The position numbers were made by a program, and so were the translations under genes. 64,000 bases of DNA, taken from positions 248,001 through 312,000 of the forward strand of contig NZ_BLXX01000004.1 of the NCBI RefSeq assembly GCF_014193515.1, in the 5' to 3' direction. Positions within the stretch are counted from its first letter, which is position 1. Every line of letters begins with the position of its first letter. Positions 1-32,951 of this stretch are shown in pieces. The notes under the pieces were generated by a model. The model worked only from the letters and a program-made list of their open reading frames with translations, was not told where the DNA came from and did not search any database. The stretch is from Geomonas silvestris. GTDB taxonomy: Bacteria; Desulfobacterota; Desulfuromonadia; Geobacterales; Geobacteraceae.

Positions 1-182
1 GCAGGGATCTTCAGCAAATCGGTGAGTTCCATCCCCTCTTCGGGAGTCTCGGGATGCAGCGGGAAGACGTACCAGCGAAACTCCACGGGGAATTCCCGGG
101 CAAGGCGGTCGGTACGCACGGTACCGAGATAGCACCAGGGTCAAACGTAATCGTAAAAAACCTCCACTACCGTCTTTCTCAT
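1..182 (-). CDS. DsbA/FrnE-family thiol oxidoreductase, probable selenoprotein (partial, cut by window edge)
   Basis: The minus-strand ATG at 182 has a strong AAGGAGGTGA ribosome binding site. The reading frame gives MRKTVVEVFYDYV, then TGA at 143-141, then PWCYLGTVRTDRL and on to the window edge with no other stop, including the family signature FPLHPETPEEG. DsbA/FrnE proteins have a CPWC active site in exactly this place (strand, YDY-[hydrophobic], CPWC, then helix). The TGA replaces the first catalytic Cys, the usual place for selenocysteine (UPWC). A hairpin of bacterial SECIS type follows the TGA. Role by family: thiol/disulfide redox chemistry, probably cytoplasmic since no signal peptide is seen. 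An ORF caller treating TGA as stop would miss the gene. The alternative is a nonsense mutation in a pseudogene. The intact frame, strong RBS and correctly placed hairpin argue against that. Confidence 0.8.
109..127 (-). promoter_or_regulatory. bSECIS-like hairpin directing selenocysteine insertion
   Basis: On the minus strand, immediately inside the DsbA-like gene, TCGGTAC (127-121) pairs perfectly with GTACCGA (115-109) around a five-base loop CGUGC. The apical loop begins 20 nt after the UGA codon and has a G as its second base. Known bacterial SECIS elements have a short apical loop with a conserved G among its first two bases, about 16-37 nt downstream of UGA, and are read by SelB. All these features match. 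The hairpin lies in coding sequence, as is normal for bacteria. Confidence 0.75.
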
Positions 183-211
183 GAGTCACCTCCTTGAACA
201 GCTATCGTCTG

Positions 212-22814: not shown

Positions 22815-25800
22815 CTAGAAATCCGCCAGCCCCACGACCTTACGCAGGATCACCAGCACGTCGCCGGCATCGATACGCCCGTCGGGGTGCGGCGCGCCGG
22901 CGATGAGCGGCGCGACGTCGCCGTGTTCCAGGAACTCCGCGGTCACCGTCTCGAGCCCCAGGGAGGCGCGCAGCGCCAGCTGCGCATCGGCGAGGTCCAC
23001 CCGGCCGTCCCCGTTCAGGTCGCCCCGGATCAGCGCCAGCTTCACGATGTTGCGCCGGGTCACGCTGACCCCGGCCAGCGGATCCAGGGCGCGCACCACC
23101 ACCGGCACGACCCCGGTCGCCGGCAGCGAGATGCGCTGTTCGAACCTGCCACCCGTCAGAACCGGGGTGTAACTCTTCCCGTCCGCCTCCAGGACCAGCG
23201 CGGTCGTCCCGGGTCCGGTCGTCCCCCGTACCACGAGGCTTGCGAGCTCCGTCCTGAGATCCTGCCCGGGTTCCTCGACGGCAAGCGCGGGGAGACCGGG
23301 GCGCAGCTCGAGGCTCCTTTTAAGCCGTGCGCTGCGGCCGGCACGCCGCGCCGTGAGTTCCAGCGTGTTGGTTCCCGGGGTAAGCGTCCCTAAGAGGCTG
23401 AAAGCCCCGGTCTGAGGCTGGACCGCGACCTGCTGAGCAGGTCCCCCGTTGAGCATCGCGGAAAGCTCGCTTCCCGGGGTGACGCTTCCGGTCAGGGTGA
23501 GCTGCTCCCCCCCGGTGATGCTGTTGTCCGCGGGGGTCGCCACCTGGATCTCCGGGGCGGCCGCATCGAGGGTGACCGTCACGCTGCGGCCCGTCGTGTT
23601 GCCGGAGAGGTCCCGCACCAGCACCTCGACCAGGTTACTCCCCGGTGCAAGCGGCACCGCCCAGCTGAAGGGTGCCTGCGGGTCGGCGAGGGGGACGCCG
23701 TTCACCGTGAGGCTCGCCACGCCGCCGCTGTCCCGGGCCTGGCCGCACAGGTTGAGCACCGGGTTCGCGGTCACCGATCCGCTGGAAAGGGTGGAGAGTT
23801 CAAGCTGGGGGGGCTCGGATTCCGGGGCGACCAGAAGCGGCTGGTGAACCGGCAGTGCCGGGTTGTAGTTGGCGTCCCCTTCCTGCCGGGCGCTTAAGAC
23901 CGCGGTGCCGGCACCTTTCAGGGTGACGAGGTTCCCCACCACCTCGGCCACGGCGGGGTCCGAGCTCTGGAAGCCGACCGGCAGGCCGCTCGAAGCCGTC
24001 GCGCTCAGGGCGAAGGGTGGATCGCCCACCCGGTGTGCAGCCAGGGGGGAGAACTCGAGCGTCTGCCCCGCCCGGTGCACCACCAGGGTCCGGGAGACCT
24101 GGGGGGCCGGTTCCAGGTTCCCCGAGCCGGGCTGGGCGGCGCTGACCTGTGCGCTCCCGGCGCCGGTGATGCGCAGCACCCTGCCGCTTACCTGTGCCAC
24201 CTGCGGGTTGGAACTGGTGAAGGTGAGGGTGAGTCCGCTGCAGGCGCTGGCGTTGAGCTCGAAGGGGGGATCGCCGTAGGTCCGCTCGGGAAGCTCGGGA
24301 AAGACGATCTCCTGGCAGGACCTGATCACGTTGAGGAGCCCGTTTTGGAAGGAGAACTGGTAGTTGGCGGCAGCGAGGCTGCCGGTTCCAACGCTGATCG
24401 GGTAACTCCCCACCGCGCTGTCCGGCCCGGCAGTGGTGGCAAGCAGGGGTTCCCCGGCGAGAGCCGACCGGGTCTCACCCCTGACGAACCCCTGGTAGCT
24501 CACGGTCAAGGGGGGGTTGGGAGTCCGGTAGGCGCGGGTCTGGTCGTCGGCGCGCACCAGGAGCGCCGCCGGGGTGATGCTGAAGCTCCCGGGGAGGTAG
24601 CTCAACAGGTAGTTGCCCAAAAGCCCGCTCCCGCCGTCCTCCGCACGCGGGGTGACCTGGTAGCTCCCCACCGTTTCCCCCGGGGCGCGGCTCGCGCCGA
24701 GCTGGATCCTCCCGGGTCCCAGGTCCGCCGGCAAAAGGCCGCTCTGGGTCGCCCCCAGGACCGGTTCGGCCCCTCCGTAGCTTTTCGAGCCGTCGCTGCC
24801 CCGAAGCGTCGCGCTTTTCGGCGCGATGCCGAGGGATCCCGGCTGGAAGCTCACCGCGTAGTTCGACCCGGGGGTGAGGGTCCCCTGCCCGATCGGGTAA
24901 GGGCCAGCCGCGACGCTCTCCCCGGGGGTGCGCTCGAGGGTACCGGAAAAGCCGTCCGACCCGATAAGCGCCGGGGTGCAGCTGTAGGTAAGCGGCGGGT
25001 CCGGGGCGCCGTACTCCTTACTCTGGTTGAGCACCCTCACCGTGACCGGTCGGGGATCGATGCTCAAGGTGGCGGCCTGGAAACTCAGGGAGTAGTTGCC
25101 GTTGAGGGTCAGGGTCCCCAGGCCGATCGGGTAGCTCCCCGCCGCCTCGCCTGGGGCGCGGGAGAGCGCCCCGGAGAAGCTGTCGCCCCCGACCAGCGCC
25201 GGGGTGTGGCTGTACCCCAGGGGGGGCTCGGGGTCGCCGTAGAGCTTGCTCCTTCCCTGTGCGGTGACGGTGATCTCCCTGGGGGTGATCGACAAGGTGG
25301 CGCCGCTGAAGTTGAGGGTGTAGCCCGCCCCGGCGCTCAGGCTCCCCTGCCCTATCGCGTAGAGCCCGACGCTCTCCCCCGGTGCCCGGGAAAGGGCGCC
25401 CGTGAAGCTGTCGCCCGGGGCGAGCGGCGGGGAAAAGCTGTAGGTCAGCGGCGGGTCGGCGCTCCCGTACCCCTTGGTCTTGGCATCGGCAGTCACGGTG
25501 ACCGTCGTCTGCAGCGCGGGATCGAGGTAGTAGCCGAGCAGGCTCTCCACCAGGGAGCCGGCGCTCCCCTTGTCGGCGGCGACGCGCCCCTGGGCCATCA
25601 GGTAGCGGTTGGCGCGCACCCCGTACTGGGCGAGGTTCAGGTTGCCGAGCTGCCAGCCGCCGGGGACCCGCGCGCCGTACCCGAGAAAGGTCCAGCTGGC
25701 CCCGGGGGCGTCCGGGTCCTCGCAGTACTCGAACCAGACCTCGCGCAGTTCGGGTGAGGCGCCGCTACGCCGCCAGCTGACGCTGTTGCCGTCCGCGGCG

Positions 25801-28154
25801 ACCGCAAGGGACTCGGCCGCAAAGCCGTAGGAATAACGTGCCAGGCGCTTGACGCCGTTGCCGTTCACCGAGTCGAAGTCCCCTCCCACGAGCAGCTTTC
25901 CGTCGGGCTGCAGGTTCACCGTGTTCACCTGCCCCACGATGGTCCCGCCGTGGTAGGCGAGCGGACCCAGGTCGAAGTCGGGGTCGACGGTGCCGTCCGC
26001 GCGGATGCGGGCCACGCAGTCCCGGTAGTAGCTGGTACCGGTGGCGTCGCGCACGTGGTCGAACACCCCGTAGATCAGCATCCCGCCGTCGGACTGCAGC
26101 GCGGTGCGAAAGATGGTGCTGGAAATGGTGTAGCCGTCCAGGAGGGTCATGGTCTCCACCCGGAAGCCCGGATCGACGCTGAGGTCCGGGTTCAGACGGA
26201 CCAGGGTGGGTTCCCAATCCGGAACGCTCGGCGGCGCCGGCCCCGCACCGCTCACCAGAAGCTTGCCGTCGGGCTGAAAGACCACCGCCAGGATCGCACC
26301 CAGCACGCCGGTCACGCTGGCGTCCAGCTGGCCGTCGCTTTTAAGCCGCAGCAGCTTGCCGTTGGCGGTTCCCAGCACGAGCTTCTGGTCCGGCTGCAGG
26401 GCCGCGGAGTATACGACGTTGTCCAACTCCGGGGGGTCGCTGAAGCTCGGATCCCGGTTCCCGTCGCTTTTAAAGCGCGCCAGGTAGCGGTAGGGTGAGG
26501 CCGCCGCCGTCATGCGGCCACCGATGTAGTAACTCCCCTCCTGGATCGCGCTCCCGTCGGGGAGGGTACTCCCCTTGGGGAGCGGCAGGATGACGGCGAC
26601 CTGGTCGCCTGTCATGAGCGCCTTCATGTTGGCGTTGAAGGTCGCCACCTGCGGGTCGGCATTGACGCTCCCCCGGGGGTCGAAGCGGGCGACCGAGCGC
26701 TGGGGCGAGCCGTTTACCTGCAGAAAGCGCCCTCCCACCAGGTAGCTGCGGTCGGGAAGCTGCGTCATCGCGTTGATCGCCCCGTTCACCCTGAGCAGAG
26801 GGTCGAAATTGGCCCCGTCCATCAGGTTCAGGTCCTCCTTGAGGCGGGCGATATAGTTGCGGGTCTGCCCCTGGACCGTGGTGAAAACACCCGCGAAGGT
26901 GGTGCTGCCGTCGGGCGAGGGGGAGATCGCGCTCACCGCCCAGTCGAGCGCCAGGCTGGCGCCGGCCAGGTCGTCGTCGAGCGCGCCGCCGGGGTAGAAG
27001 CGCGCCAGCCGGGTACGGGTCCGTACCCCGGCCAGGGAGAAGTCGCCCCCTGCCATCAGCTTGCCGTCGGGTTGCAGGGCGAGCGCCCGGACCGCCCCGT
27101 CCAGCACGGGAAAGAGGGTGGTTTCCACCAGCCCGGAGCGGCTCAGCCGGGCCAGGTGGCCGGCTGGGGTGCCGGAACTGGCGCTGAAGTCCCCCCCGAT
27201 GAGCAGTTTTCCGTCCGGCCGGACCGCGATGGCGCGGACCGCGGCGTTGGGGGCCGCGGTGAACCCCGCGTCCAGGGCGCCGTCGCCGCCAAGCCGCGCC
27301 AGGTAATTCGCCCCCAGCGCGCCGGCCGCGAAGTTTCCCCCGACCAGGATCTTGCCGTCGACCTGCAGGGCGAGGGCAAAGACGCTCCCCCCCGGGTCCG
27401 CCGCCGCAAAACCCGGGTCCAGGCTCCCGGTCCCCTGGAGCCGGGCCAGCCGCGCCCGGGGGAGCGTGAAGGCCCCCCCGAGGTAGATCTTGCCGCCGGA
27501 AAGCACGATGGCGTGCACCGCGGCGTCGGGAGCGGTGCCGAGGCTGAAGCCGGCGGCGCCGGGATCGAACGCCGCCACCGAGACCCGGGCCAGGTTGGGG
27601 CTCGGGGTGCCGAGGACCAGTTCGGAGAAGGCCCCGCCGACCAAGAGCCCGCGCCCGTCGGCTAAGAGCGCGAGCGCGTGCACCTGTACCGGGGAGGCGG
27701 TGCTGACCGGGTCGAAGGGGTCCAGGGCGCCGTCGGGGCTCCCCAGCCGGGCCAGGCCGCGCCGCGGGGTGGCGCCCACCTGGGTGAAGTCCCCCCCCAC
27801 CAGAAGGTAGGGCGCGGCAGAGGGGAGATCCGGGTCGGGCTGCAGGGCGAGTGCCCGCACCGGTCCGTTTAAGGGGGGAGGCGCGAAGCTGGTATCGAGG
27901 GTGCCGTCGGGGTTGAGGCGGGCCAGGTAGTTCAGGGTCACGGCGGGCGCGCCGCCGGTGATGCTGAAATCGCCACCGATGACGATCTTGGCGTCCCAGG
28001 GCTGCACCAGCACGGCGTGGACCCCGGAGCCGCTCAGGGAGACCGGGCCGGTACCGCCGGTAACGAAGCCGTCCAGCCCGGTGTACCCCTTAAGCGGCGC
28101 GGGAATGAGGGTCACCAGCACGAGCAACACCAGCCCAACGATACGCGCGTTCAT
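22815..28154 (-). CDS. Giant exported protein: delta-60 repeat propeller, MBG domains, Ig-like domains, dockerin-like C-terminus
   Basis: 1779 residues. A signal peptide (MNARIVGLVLLVLVTLIP) precedes a long array of delta-60 repeats (to about residue 770) with the phrase LQPDGKLLVGGDF in many variants, predicted to fold as beta-propellers. Then come five MBG-type repeats (about 880-1270; each has YG-x2-PPLTYS, LSRAPGES, GSYPIG, LSI). They are followed by two Ig-like segments with YGDPPFEL / VGDPPFAL and invasin-like domains (VEVLVRDLSGNTTG). The C-terminal GDLNGDGRVDLADAQLAL and HPDGRIDAGDVLVILR pair has two calcium-loop repeats as in dockerins. No enzyme motif seen, so a surface structural or adhesion protein is likely. 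Start chosen at 28154 with GGTGGGAGGCAGGC. It sits 48 bases after the PilY1-like gene and is probably co-expressed. Confidence 0.85.
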   Translation of the reverse strand: MNARIVGLVLLVLVTLIPAPLKGYTGLDGFVTGGTGPVSLSGSGVHAVLVQPWDAKIVIGGDFSITGGAPAVTLNYLARLNPDGTLDTSFAPPPLNGPVRALALQPDPDLPSAAPYLLVGGDFTQVGATPRRGLARLGSPDGALDPFDPVSTASPVQVHALALLADGRGLLVGGAFSELVLGTPSPNLARVSVAAFDPGAAGFSLGTAPDAAVHAIVLSGGKIYLGGAFTLPRARLARLQGTGSLDPGFAAADPGGSVFALALQVDGKILVGGNFAAGALGANYLARLGGDGALDAGFTAAPNAAVRAIAVRPDGKLLIGGDFSASSGTPAGHLARLSRSGLVETTLFPVLDGAVRALALQPDGKLMAGGDFSLAGVRTRTRLARFYPGGALDDDLAGASLALDWAVSAISPSPDGSTTFAGVFTTVQGQTRNYIARLKEDLNLMDGANFDPLLRVNGAINAMTQLPDRSYLVGGRFLQVNGSPQRSVARFDPRGSVNADPQVATFNANMKALMTGDQVAVILPLPKGSTLPDGSAIQEGSYYIGGRMTAAASPYRYLARFKSDGNRDPSFSDPPELDNVVYSAALQPDQKLVLGTANGKLLRLKSDGQLDASVTGVLGAILAVVFQPDGKLLVSGAGPAPPSVPDWEPTLVRLNPDLSVDPGFRVETMTLLDGYTISSTIFRTALQSDGGMLIYGVFDHVRDATGTSYYRDCVARIRADGTVDPDFDLGPLAYHGGTIVGQVNTVNLQPDGKLLVGGDFDSVNGNGVKRLARYSYGFAAESLAVAADGNSVSWRRSGASPELREVWFEYCEDPDAPGASWTFLGYGARVPGGWQLGNLNLAQYGVRANRYLMAQGRVAADKGSAGSLVESLLGYYLDPALQTTVTVTADAKTKGYGSADPPLTYSFSPPLAPGDSFTGALSRAPGESVGLYAIGQGSLSAGAGYTLNFSGATLSITPREITVTAQGRSKLYGDPEPPLGYSHTPALVGGDSFSGALSRAPGEAAGSYPIGLGTLTLNGNYSLSFQAATLSIDPRPVTVRVLNQSKEYGAPDPPLTYSCTPALIGSDGFSGTLERTPGESVAAGPYPIGQGTLTPGSNYAVSFQPGSLGIAPKSATLRGSDGSKSYGGAEPVLGATQSGLLPADLGPGRIQLGASRAPGETVGSYQVTPRAEDGGSGLLGNYLLSYLPGSFSITPAALLVRADDQTRAYRTPNPPLTVSYQGFVRGETRSALAGEPLLATTAGPDSAVGSYPISVGTGSLAAANYQFSFQNGLLNVIRSCQEIVFPELPERTYGDPPFELNASACSGLTLTFTSSNPQVAQVSGRVLRITGAGSAQVSAAQPGSGNLEPAPQVSRTLVVHRAGQTLEFSPLAAHRVGDPPFALSATASSGLPVGFQSSDPAVAEVVGNLVTLKGAGTAVLSARQEGDANYNPALPVHQPLLVAPESEPPQLELSTLSSGSVTANPVLNLCGQARDSGGVASLTVNGVPLADPQAPFSWAVPLAPGSNLVEVLVRDLSGNTTGRSVTVTLDAAAPEIQVATPADNSITGGEQLTLTGSVTPGSELSAMLNGGPAQQVAVQPQTGAFSLLGTLTPGTNTLELTARRAGRSARLKRSLELRPGLPALAVEEPGQDLRTELASLVVRGTTGPGTTALVLEADGKSYTPVLTGGRFEQRISLPATGVVPVVVRALDPLAGVSVTRRNIVKLALIRGDLNGDGRVDLADAQLALRASLGLETVTAEFLEHGDVAPLIAGAPHPDGRIDAGDVLVILRKVVGLADF

Positions 28155-28202
28155 GCCTGCCTCCCACCTGCTGGGGCCCGGCGCCACCCTGCTGCCGGTC
28201 CG

Positions 28203-31200
28203 TCAGCGTTCCTGGATGTGGATGATCTTTTTGAGGGGTTTGAGGCCCGAGTTGCTGATCAGCTTGGCGTTCCCCGTCTTGCCCGAGAGCGCCTCGCTGC
28301 GCCGCCCGCCTCTATCGCTCCACCCGGAGAGCGGAAGCTCCGCGGTGCTCGCGTCGGAGAGGGGCAGCACCGCCTTGCCGCTGCGCGGTGCGCCCCCGGC
28401 GTTGTCGTAGCGCACCCCCCAGAGGTAGGAGGTGCCTTGCCGGCAGGGGTCGCTGGCGGGCTTGAAGCTGGGGAAGTAGACGACCCCTGCGGTGAGCGCG
28501 CTGGGGTTGGCGGTGCAGCGCTCGCTGCCGTAGCCGTTGTTCGCGGGGTCGAGCCCGATCCACCACCCCTTGGTGTCCGAGCCGGCGGGGACCGGGTCGC
28601 TCGTTGCGTCGTACAGGTCGGCAAGCTTGAGCGGCGTCGCGCTGCACAGGGTGCCGTCTTTGGGGGTAAGGGTGTTGTCGGGGCGGTAGCAGGGCTCCTG
28701 CACCCCGAAGAGGGCGCGCCCCGCGGTTAAGTCGTCGCGGTTGTAGAAGTAGCGGCCGGTACCGAAGTAGAGCCAGAGTTTGTTGTTCTTGCGGTCCTGC
28801 AGCTTCGCGATGCTCCCGGTAACCGGGCCGATGCCGTCGATTACCCGGCTCACCACCCACTTGGCGGGGTCCAGCTGCTCGCGGGTCAAAAGGCGCAGCA
28901 CCCCCCCGGTCCAGCTGCCATCGCCGGCCTTGCGGGTGTACCCCAGGTAGAGGGCATCGTCCTGGTAAAAGCCCCGGGAGTTCGGGTCCCAGCGGTCGGC
29001 GTCGATCCCCCCCCCGGAGAGGCTCCCGCCGAAGGCGTTGGCGATGCCGGTGTCGATCACCCAGTAGTTCACCCCCTCGACGAGGCGGCCGACAGGGTTC
29101 AGGTCGACCACGAAAAGCTTCAGGTTCTGGTCCGAGGTCCCCTGGAGCTGACAGAGATCCCGGTCGATGGAGCCGGTGGGCCCCGAGGCGAAGACGGCGA
29201 ACCAGCGGCCGTTTCGGGCCGGATCCGGCAGTCCCGAGCTCCCCTCCTCGAGGGCGTTGACCTTCAGGATGGCGGGGCCGGAGGTGGCAAACCCGAGCCC
29301 CGGCGGCGAGAACTCCCAGATGAGGCGCGGCGGGGTCCCGCTGCCGTCGGCGCGCTGGCCGGTGACGTCGAGGGCGAAGTAGGCCGAGAAGCCGCCATCG
29401 GCGCGGGGGGACTTGACACAGGTTCCCCCTCCCCCCTCGCTGCAGCTCTCGGAGGGCCCCCGGGTCGCCCCCCCCTGCCCCATCCCGCCGATCAGCACGG
29501 TGCGCCAGTTACTCCCGGTCTCGGTCTCCTTGGGACAGTTCCAGTAGCCGGCCCGGCTGCAGCGCGCCGGGTCCCCGAGGCTCGCGTCGACCAAGGTGGG
29601 ACTGCCGTCCACGAAGTAAAGGTGCGGGTAGTCGGGCTCTTTCAGGTAGCGCAGATAGGGGAGCGCGTTTTTCGGGACGAAGGCCCACTCCTCCTCCCCG
29701 AGGTCGGCCCCCGCGAGGGTCGCCTTCTGCCCGGCTGGCCAGCCGGGCTGCGAGGTGAGCTTCAGGGTCCCCAGCCGGAAGGCGTGCAGCATCCCGTCGT
29801 TGGCGCCCAGGTAGACGGTGCCGCGGTTTGCGTAGTCCACCCCCTTCAAAAAGGCGCGGTAGGAGCGGTCCGCGTAGCCGCGCGGCGGGGTGAGGCCGTA
29901 GCTGGCGAGCCCGTTTGCGGTCTGAAGCGCCGGCGTCGAGGCGATGATGTCGCCAAGCTTCCAGACCCGGCGCTCGCCCCCCGCGCTGCGGGCCACGCTG
30001 CGGCTGCGGCTGCCGTCGGCGTCGCTCCCCCGGACGAAGGAGACGATGGCGGCCGCCTCGCCGGGGGTTTGGGCCTGCAAGAGCGCGCGCTGGTCCGGGC
30101 TGTCGGGGTCCAGGAGGGTGAGCGTGCTCCCGTCGGTCTGGGTGTAGATGGTCCGGCCGGCGGGGTCCCGGCTCCAGAGCTTCAGCCCGGCGCGCCAGAG
30201 GCTCTCCAGCGTCTCGACCCGCACCGCGCGCGGGTACCCGGCGGGCTGCACGGCATCGGCGCTGCCGTCGCCGTCGGCGTCCAGGGAGAGGGTCGCCCGG
30301 GTCTCCTTCGCGGCGGGGTCGAAGCTGAAGCGGACCACCCGGTCCCGCTTCAGGTCCAGGCTCAAAAGCCCCCCGGTGTCCTCCCTGATGGTGCTCGCGC
30401 CGCCACTGCTCCCTAACAGCGGGTCGAGGTAGTACCAAAGCGCCTGCAGCTCGCCGAGCCAGCTCGCGGAACTCGCCCCGCCGTCGAAGCTCTTCACCGG
30501 ATAGAACTGTTCCTGCAGGTAGAGCGCGCCGTTCGCGTCGCCGCTCGAGACGATCGAGGCGTCGGTCCCCGAGTTGGATCCGGTGCCAATGAGCTGGAAC
30601 ACGCTGGCCAGGGCACTCTCCAGGTCGGCGGGGCGCTGGACGCTCAAAAAGCGCCCCCCTCCCTTGGCCGCCACCAGTTGCATCATCTTCTCGGGGACCC
30701 CTTCGTCGCTGGTGCTGCAGCTGCCGTCCTCGAGGTACGCGCTGCTCGATGCTGCGCCGCAGGGAAGCCCGGTGTAGACCACGTAACTGGTGATGAAGTC
30801 CCGGTTGTTCTGGATCGGCCGGGAGGGATCGTTGATGTTCGTGTGGTTGGCGATCCAGGCGAGGTCGTCCAGGTTGTAGCTCCCCTGGAACGGGAGCCCG
30901 GAGTCCGGCTGGTCGGAGTTCTGCGTGGTCTGGCTGACCGGCAGCCCGCCCGCCCCCCCGAAGCTGCGCTGCGCATCGGCAAGGTAGCTGTTCACCGCCC
31001 GGGCGCGGTCCGCGCTGGACATGCCGTCGGTCACCATGAGGATGTTGTTCTTCTGGCAGCTGTACTGCGAAGGCGGCCAGCTCTCGTCGAAGTCAGCCCC
31101 CTGGAGCCTCAGCTCGGTCCGGTTGGCGAAGTAGCCGATCGCCTCGTAAAAGGTCTCGGCCCACGGGGTCCAGGAGTTCGCGTTCACCGCGTCGATGGCC

Positions 31201-32804
31201 GCTACCAGCCCGGAGCCGGGGCTGTGGTCACCCAGCGGGGAGTGGTTCAGGTAGGAGATCACCCGCCCCCCGTCCAGGTGGGGGTCCTCCCGGCAGGCAT
31301 CCCGCCCGCCGACCAGGCAGTCGGAGGCCTGGGCGCACTCGCGCCGGGGCGCGGGGTCGTACTGGCAGTGCTTGACGCAGGGGATCGGGCTCGATTCGTC
31401 CCCGCACTCCGACCCGGAGCCGTTGTCGTTGAACACCATGGCCCCGAAGTTGATCTGGCCGCCGTACTTCTGCACCAGACCGCTGGGGGGGGCGGCCGCG
31501 GGAATCCGGGCGACCAGCGTCGCCGAGACCTCCCCCAGATTGCTGATCCCGGCATCGAGGATGAAGCCGGGGACGTTCAAGGTGGTGCCGGTCATGTTTG
31601 CCGTGACCGAGGGATCGGTGAGCCAGGGATGCGCCAGGTCCTTGCAGTAGTCGAGTGTCTGTCGGTAAAGGCAGCTCGCCGAGGCCGTGAAGCCTCTCAT
31701 CATGTCGTAGCAGGACCCCAGGTAGCCGAAGGTGTAATCGATACCCTGGTAGCTGGTCAGGTGGTGGAAGACCCCCCTGCCGCAGACGTCATCGCCGGTA
31801 TTCCTGACGATGTCGAAGGGGTTGCCGCCGTAGATCCATTCGATGCGGGCCTGGCAGTCCGTCGTGAGGTTCGTGTCTGGGGCGAGCGAGCCGGTGGCTA
31901 AGTAGGAGTAGCAGTCGGTCATGATCTCGGTGTAGACCTTTCCTTTGGTCGGTATCTCGTCCGCGTCGAACTGGTCCCCCAGACAGCCGAGCGCGGCCTG
32001 GCGCAGCGCGTTCACCCCGGCGGCGTCGCGCCAGGCGGTGATGGCGGAAAGGCAGGCATCCCGGTTGTAGGCGTTGGCGTAGACCTCGATCCGGGAGAGC
32101 CCCCCCCTCCCCGACTGGTAGGAGTACTCCGCCTCCGAGGGGATCGGGCCGCGCACCGCGAAGGTGACCGGGAGGTTGTCGACCATCTTGACGAAGCGCT
32201 TCCCCTGGCAGCCGCGCGTCTCGGCCGACAAAAGCCCGGTTGCCGGGTCGTACTTCCCGCCGGTGAGGGCGCGTTTCTCCAGGTCGAGCTTGCTCATCAC
32301 GAGCCAGTTGAGGAAATTCCCGCGGGCCAGGAAGTTGTCGACCCGCTGGTAGGAGATCCCCAGTGCCGACTCGTCGGGGACGCTGTTCACGCAGAGATAA
32401 CCGTTGCGGGCAGTGCCGCAGCGCTCGGAGCCGGGGATGCCGGCCGGCTCGGAGGCTACCTGGAACCGGGCGCCGGCGAAGTCGTAGCGGTAGAAGAGGT
32501 CCGCGTCGAAATAGCCGAGATAGCTCGCGGTGTCGCGGTAGGTGTCGTCCAGGCAGTAGGTGGGGGTCTCGGTCGAGGTGTTGGTGTAGGCCGGGTCGTA
32601 CATGCTGGCCGAGTTGTCGATCATGAGCAGCAGGTTGGGCTTGATGCCGGAGCCGGCCAGGGGGGGCAGACTGCAGTAGTTGCGCGCGCTGGGGATGCCG
32701 GGGACTTCGGCCCGGGCCGGGAGGCCCAACCCGGCCAGCGCTAGAAAGAGAAGCAGCACGATCAGGCAGCGCCCCGCAGCGCCGCCTGGATACCTGTTTT
32801 CCAT
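28203..32804 (-). CDS. PilY1-like type IV pilus tip adhesin
   Basis: 1533 residues. Signal peptide to about residue 32 (LPARA). A von Willebrand A-type region opens with KPNLLLMIDNSASM, the MIDAS DxSxS motif with Asp near 63, and includes the late VWA strands NILMVTDGMSSADRARAV. Many Cys pairs lie in the inserted loops (CVKHCQYDPAPRRECAQ). The C-terminal part from about 900 has the PilY1 propeller: TVYLGANDGMLHAFRLG, WAFVPKNALPYLRYL, and the final TSYLWGVRYDNAGG. PilY1 proteins are secreted, calcium-dependent tip factors that prime type IV pili and bind surfaces. Start chosen at 32804 with GAGGAAGGG. Minor pilins normally adjacent to pilY1 are missing here. Confidence 0.9.
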   Translation of the reverse strand: MENRYPGGAAGRCLIVLLLFLALAGLGLPARAEVPGIPSARNYCSLPPLAGSGIKPNLLLMIDNSASMYDPAYTNTSTETPTYCLDDTYRDTASYLGYFDADLFYRYDFAGARFQVASEPAGIPGSERCGTARNGYLCVNSVPDESALGISYQRVDNFLARGNFLNWLVMSKLDLEKRALTGGKYDPATGLLSAETRGCQGKRFVKMVDNLPVTFAVRGPIPSEAEYSYQSGRGGLSRIEVYANAYNRDACLSAITAWRDAAGVNALRQAALGCLGDQFDADEIPTKGKVYTEIMTDCYSYLATGSLAPDTNLTTDCQARIEWIYGGNPFDIVRNTGDDVCGRGVFHHLTSYQGIDYTFGYLGSCYDMMRGFTASASCLYRQTLDYCKDLAHPWLTDPSVTANMTGTTLNVPGFILDAGISNLGEVSATLVARIPAAAPPSGLVQKYGGQINFGAMVFNDNGSGSECGDESSPIPCVKHCQYDPAPRRECAQASDCLVGGRDACREDPHLDGGRVISYLNHSPLGDHSPGSGLVAAIDAVNANSWTPWAETFYEAIGYFANRTELRLQGADFDESWPPSQYSCQKNNILMVTDGMSSADRARAVNSYLADAQRSFGGAGGLPVSQTTQNSDQPDSGLPFQGSYNLDDLAWIANHTNINDPSRPIQNNRDFITSYVVYTGLPCGAASSSAYLEDGSCSTSDEGVPEKMMQLVAAKGGGRFLSVQRPADLESALASVFQLIGTGSNSGTDASIVSSGDANGALYLQEQFYPVKSFDGGASSASWLGELQALWYYLDPLLGSSGGASTIREDTGGLLSLDLKRDRVVRFSFDPAAKETRATLSLDADGDGSADAVQPAGYPRAVRVETLESLWRAGLKLWSRDPAGRTIYTQTDGSTLTLLDPDSPDQRALLQAQTPGEAAAIVSFVRGSDADGSRSRSVARSAGGERRVWKLGDIIASTPALQTANGLASYGLTPPRGYADRSYRAFLKGVDYANRGTVYLGANDGMLHAFRLGTLKLTSQPGWPAGQKATLAGADLGEEEWAFVPKNALPYLRYLKEPDYPHLYFVDGSPTLVDASLGDPARCSRAGYWNCPKETETGSNWRTVLIGGMGQGGATRGPSESCSEGGGGTCVKSPRADGGFSAYFALDVTGQRADGSGTPPRLIWEFSPPGLGFATSGPAILKVNALEEGSSGLPDPARNGRWFAVFASGPTGSIDRDLCQLQGTSDQNLKLFVVDLNPVGRLVEGVNYWVIDTGIANAFGGSLSGGGIDADRWDPNSRGFYQDDALYLGYTRKAGDGSWTGGVLRLLTREQLDPAKWVVSRVIDGIGPVTGSIAKLQDRKNNKLWLYFGTGRYFYNRDDLTAGRALFGVQEPCYRPDNTLTPKDGTLCSATPLKLADLYDATSDPVPAGSDTKGWWIGLDPANNGYGSERCTANPSALTAGVVYFPSFKPASDPCRQGTSYLWGVRYDNAGGAPRSGKAVLPLSDASTAELPLSGWSDRGGRRSEALSGKTGNAKLISNSGLKPLKKIIHIQER

Positions 32805-32951
32805 GGCACCCTTCCTCGTCTTGGGGCGGCAGCCACACCGCCATGAGCGTTTTCTAACCTGCACTAGTATAGCCGCAGGTCCGCCAAAAAAAAGCAGGCC
32901 AGGGCTAGAAGTGGAGGAAAGTGCTCCCAAGCGGCGTTTAGCTGGGACGGG

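Follow-up and report, generated by a model that had tools for sequence, protein, structure and literature searches.

A predicted selenocysteine codon in the active site of a FrnE/DsbA-like oxidoreductase gene of Geomonas silvestris

DsbA-like selenoproteins carrying a UxxC motif have been published since 2005-2006, so that the suggestion made in the preliminary description of this DNA, namely that such a class may already be known, turned out to be right. A survey of the Sargasso Sea in 2005 gives 9 DsbA-like UxxC sequences under COG2761 (PMC1088965), and a DsbA-like selenoprotein was described in 2006 in Anaeromyxobacter dehalogenans, Desulfovibrio desulfuricans and Desulfotomaculum reducens, while the table of that same paper, in the part consulted, does not list the family for three Geobacter species and Desulfuromonas acetoxidans (PMC1794560). 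Dde_1263 was reported again in 2007 (PMC1914089), DsbA 1, 2 and 3 were reported in 2008 (PMC2398784) and DsbA-like UxxC selenoproteins in 2022 (PMC9312934). A 2016 table holds the figures 41 and 45 for the DsbA-like family, which we take as organisms and genes (PMC5029168), and a 2026 review has PF01323 as 'DsbA-like protein form 1' (PMC13188914). The consulted passages of the deep-Sep paper make no mention of DsbA (PMC12013277), and among the literature matches listed no title dealt with this gene in Geomonas. Finally, a Sec-containing oxidoreductase named FrnE is reported in green algae (Mamiellophyceae and M. viride; PMC6627142).

The gene that we describe is very probably a further case of this kind of DsbA-like selenoprotein and, as such, is unsurprising to the specialist. 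It has the Pfam domain, the UxxC motif and the existence of Cys homologues in common with the published family, to which it is likened by description and not by sequence. The likeness to the green-algal protein is also one of description, by the name of Sec-containing FrnE only, and that protein is eukaryotic whereas the present gene is bacterial. The position of the SECIS element and the decoding factors of these eukaryotes differ from the bacterial ones. The closest characterized structure is FrnE of Deinococcus radiodurans (5cnw, 5co3, 5cp1, 5coh, 5xwh), which is the best match both by sequence and by fold at 30-31% identity, and which shares the xPWC active site. It has a Cys where our protein has a TGA and predicted Sec, and its chain of 260 residues runs past the aligned part (chain residues 11-203), whereas ours stops at residue 199. 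A further difference concerns the conserved Pro174, where the loop is VPSH in our protein and VPFF in the D. radiodurans one.

The window, by which we mean the whole stretch of 64,000 nucleotides that was analysed (G000:C4:248001-312000), contains on its minus strand the 5' part of this gene (1..182, codons 1-60), which starts with the ATG at 182-180. The remainder of the gene was taken from the same contig outside the window. A ribosome binding site, AAGGAGGTGA, can be read directly upstream (186..195, minus strand, read as 195-186), with its 3' end 3 nt and its GGAGG core 6 nt from the ATG. Codon 14 is an in-frame TGA (141..143, minus strand), followed by CCC TGG TGC, so that reading it as selenocysteine gives the motif UPWC. 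The preliminary description had reported this ribosome binding site and a minus-strand frame from the ATG at 182 that is open save for a TGA replacing the first Cys of CPWC, and the codons, read directly, bear it out on both points. The frame does not decay outside the window: it continues for 139 further codons to a TGA stop at G000:C4:247585-247583, giving a product of 199 aa that aligns with FrnE/DsbA homologues and in which the TGA at codon 14 is the sole internal stop. Scans for promoters and terminators found none (0 each, against 0.1 and 1.5 in shuffled sequences, respectively).

The product matches the Pfam domain DSBA (PF01323) over residues 5-194 with 111 bits, for a cut-off of 25.6, and the same domain is matched at E 0.001 by all 41 members of the protein alignment A1, which covers 41 of the 55 distinct related loci considered below. 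This DSBA domain across the whole length, together with UPWC, is what characterizes a DsbA-like UxxC selenoprotein. The closest solved relative by sequence is D. radiodurans FrnE (E 4.2e-23, residues 3-185), followed by SCO1869 of Streptomyces (E 3.7e-16). An AlphaFold model built from the 41 aligned relatives has a mean pLDDT of 95.9 and a FrnE-type fold, its top match in the PDB being FrnE 5cnw with a TM score of 0.89. The xPWC motif opens with residue 14, and D11, residue 14, P15, W16, C17 and Y18 do not vary among the 41 proteins of the alignment, in which Sec is written as C. The product does not have the C-terminal extension that follows the DSBA domain in the D. radiodurans protein, since it is only 199 aa long. 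Nor does it seem to have the N-terminal signal peptide of a periplasmic DsbA: with a first strand that starts at residue 4 and an active site as early as residue 14, there is no space in which a signal peptide could fit, so that the protein is probably cytoplasmic. Among the NCBIfam models, none attains its cut-off on this protein, and the sole match is NF041057 with 29.7 bits for a cut-off of 190. By E-values only, 31 of the 41 aligned members match NF041057 (best E 6.8e-11) and 5 match TIGR00411 (best E 7.5e-07).

If the TGA is a selenocysteine codon, homologues are expected to carry either this codon or a Cys codon at the same column, and this is what the alignment with FrnE/DsbA homologues gives. 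We entered 73 loci (L020-L092) in the active-site count, with only the best match of each; L074, which is without the active site, was dropped, and 17 of the other 72 proved to be duplicates, their gene having already been retrieved by a different route, so that 55 distinct loci remained. The active-site codon is TGA in 49 of them, TGC in 4 and TGT in 2. As these loci were collected by likeness to the window protein, the ratio of 49 to 6 holds for near relatives and not for the DSBA family at large; in addition, one of the six peptide patterns used in the search has Cys at the site, which favoured Cys copies. In a second collection of 26 named loci, the nearest one belongs to Geomonas limicola (85% identity) and has the TGA too. 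An identical copy of the G. limicola gene occurs in G008, a genome from the genus of the window organism.

These counts bear directly on a rival reading, in which the gene would be a pseudogene, or a sequencing error would have turned a TGC into TGA, with a product made from the portion behind the TGA alone or no product at all. A plain list of open reading frames speaks for it in yielding a 178-aa frame from a GTG after the TGA, which is also what a gene caller stopping at TGA would annotate. This shorter product, however, would be devoid of the active site, as it lacks the first strand and the entire UPWC motif of the modelled fold. A TGA kept at 49 of 55 distinct loci strongly disfavours an error. 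Selection points the same way: against the orthologue of G008, dN/dS is 0.14 downstream of the TGA and 0.12 before it, the latter from only 7.7 synonymous sites, and the downstream value reaches 0.16, 0.19 and 0.35 when the gene is compared with three loci that are more distant. Judged from these ratios, the part of the gene after the TGA is under purifying selection. It was on the strength of the 49 TGA loci that we rejected a pseudogene or a sequencing error, and we give this reading hardly any probability.

A hairpin just downstream of the TGA is a requirement of SelB-dependent decoding. Such a bSECIS-type hairpin is found at 109..127 on the minus strand, with a 7-bp stem (TCGGTAC/GTACCGA, at 127-121 and 115-109) and a 5-nt loop CGTGC (120-116), whose second base is a G, near the start of the apical loop. 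The preliminary description had placed a seven-bp hairpin with a G in its loop 20 nt after the TGA; the stem and the G stand, whereas the 20 nt is the distance from the TGA to the loop, that from the TGA to the stem being 13 nt. We judged the hairpin by our own pair counts over the aligned loci. At a constant distance from the TGA, at least 6 pairs can form in 49 of 49 TGA loci and all 7 in 44 of 49, and these loci show six types of loop, every one of which has G as its second base.

The control consisted of 2000 permutations in which codons were exchanged within columns among sequences sharing the amino acid, thus keeping both the protein and the codons. Observed paired cells amounted to 338 of 343 over the 49 loci, against a mean of 324.7 and a maximum of 330 in the permutations, and complete stems to 44 of 49, against a mean of 33.4 and a maximum of 39, so that neither value was reached (0/2000 each). 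The 10 extra pair types of the hairpin were matched by 1 of 2000 permutations, and the presence of 6 or more pairs in every one of the 49 loci by 19 of 2000. Repeating the procedure with the 41 segments that differ in sequence gave similar results (0, 0, 1 and 12 of 2000 for the four measures). Alignment A2, made of 18 of the 49 TGA loci hand-picked for diversity, has 97.6% of its 126 cells paired and two-sided changes in 5 of the 7 pairs; its covariation amounts to 0.297, compared with 0.162 for shuffled versions (0/500 reach it), its number of pair types is matched by 66 of 500 shuffles, and the best slid version of the stem pairs in 44.4% of cells. All of these permutation and shuffle statistics ignore kinship among loci. 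Taken by its energy of folding only, the single hairpin is unremarkable and not significant, with z -1.34 over 42 nt (23/200 shuffles at least as stable) and z -2.31 over 22 nt (7/200). Thus, on the loci compared, the feature of the hairpin that goes beyond chance is its conservation across relatives, and not its folding energy.

Of the 7 stem pairs, all remain in L090 and 6 in L041, whereas the other four of the six Cys homologues have 2, 4, 4 and 5, as if the hairpin decayed following the loss of Sec. L041 and L090 are Cys-coding and yet retain the SECIS-type stem, resembling relics of a Sec-to-Cys change.

The preliminary description had made its reading depend on a selenocysteine machinery, and each component sought in the genome is present over its cut-off: selB (382.7 bits), selA (603.6), selD (366.1) and a tRNA-Sec (78 bits), which ARAGORN also calls as tRNA-SeC with anticodon tca. 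The selD match (L094, G000:C11:84133-85047) itself carries one in-frame TGA, from which SelD is probably a selenoprotein as well. In the relatives, selB passes its cut-off in 39 of the 41 genomes bearing the gene (counted by eye), one of which, G135, shows only a Cys copy; as selB passes in 127 of 147 genomes overall, its presence in relatives does not discriminate and is weak evidence. The two exceptions are G138, which is 52% complete and has a selB match of 180 bits only, and G086. The latter is 96% complete and contains the TGA gene with its hairpin (L042, G086:C34), but selA gives no match there, selB and selD match only below the cut-off, and no tRNA-Sec lies above the gathering score. 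A TGA form in a genome where no Sec gene exceeds its cut-off speaks for the pseudogene or error reading; this discrepancy could also come from an incomplete or mixed assembly, a misplaced contig, a gap or a recent loss. The remaining alternative, in which read-through would insert some other amino acid at the TGA (for instance Trp or Cys, by near-cognate suppression) and involve no selenium, is highly improbable in view of the complete Sec machinery of the genome, the Cys codon found in 6 of the 6 loci where the codon is not TGA, and the covarying hairpin just 3' of it.

The TGA at codon 14 thus very probably specifies selenocysteine at the active site of this small bacterial redox enzyme, and we are nearly certain that the product is a predicted selenocysteine-containing FrnE/DsbA-like thiol-disulfide oxidoreductase, probably of the cytoplasm. 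SelB, on the hairpin, would deliver Sec-tRNA at the UGA, and the protein would then bear a UPWC redox center. The selenol would attack, Cys17 would resolve the selenenyl-sulfide, and the protein would act as a disulfide exchange enzyme. The finding is useful for annotation and opens no new mechanism.

At E 1e-20, the gene is found in 41 of the 147 genomes around the window organism and in 4 of the 19 genomes of its genus, its own being included in both counts. A survey of 395 genomes of the phylum gave 78 with a match at the same threshold; among the 79 matches that it listed, a single in-frame TGA is present in 64, counted by eye and whatever its position, and 15 have none. In a plasmid collection, 803 records match, all below 60% identity; the best among the 20 matches listed reaches 34.3%, and these 20 are DsbA family oxidoreductases or have no listed gene. 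The neighborhood was clustered from ORFs of at least 90 codons in the 26 named loci and the window locus, with flanks of 3 kb (less at contig ends). Setting aside the gene itself and ORFs in overlapping frames, only two neighbor families recur in at least 3 loci. Each is present in 4 of 27, and for one family 3 loci also show a shadow ORF on the opposite strand. The patchy distribution and the lack of a conserved neighbor fit a self-contained accessory redox enzyme, often lost or transferred.

On an unrooted tree of 54 proteins, from which the partial L092 was excluded, the Cys copies do not form a single group. The Cys label requires 5 changes, for a mean of 5.8 with shuffled labels (74/500 as low). 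L041 is nested among TGA loci, in a group that has support, and L090 and L091 join the TGA locus L086 with support 96/77; on this tree without a root, such placements would suggest a change from Sec to Cys. Two further TGA copies of the window's own genus, L082 and L083, lie in another clade, which suggests transfer or an old duplication. A wider reading, which we propose tentatively and regard as rather doubtful, would be that of a Sec-dominant FrnE subfamily, largely missed by annotation, solitary and mobile, present across the order of the window organism, other parts of the phylum and beyond. Its Cys versions would have arisen several times, some of them (L041, L090) with a relic SECIS hairpin, and in G086 the TGA form may have outlasted the decoding machinery. 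If true, this subfamily would offer a natural series for watching selenocysteine loss.

Elsewhere in the window, two large ORFs adjoin each other on the minus strand. The one at 28203-32930 encodes 1575 aa and has no Pfam match at E 1e-10, and the one at 22815-28187 encodes 1790 aa in which MBG domains and beta-propeller DUF5122 domains recur, so that its product may be a large protein of the cell surface or a secreted one.
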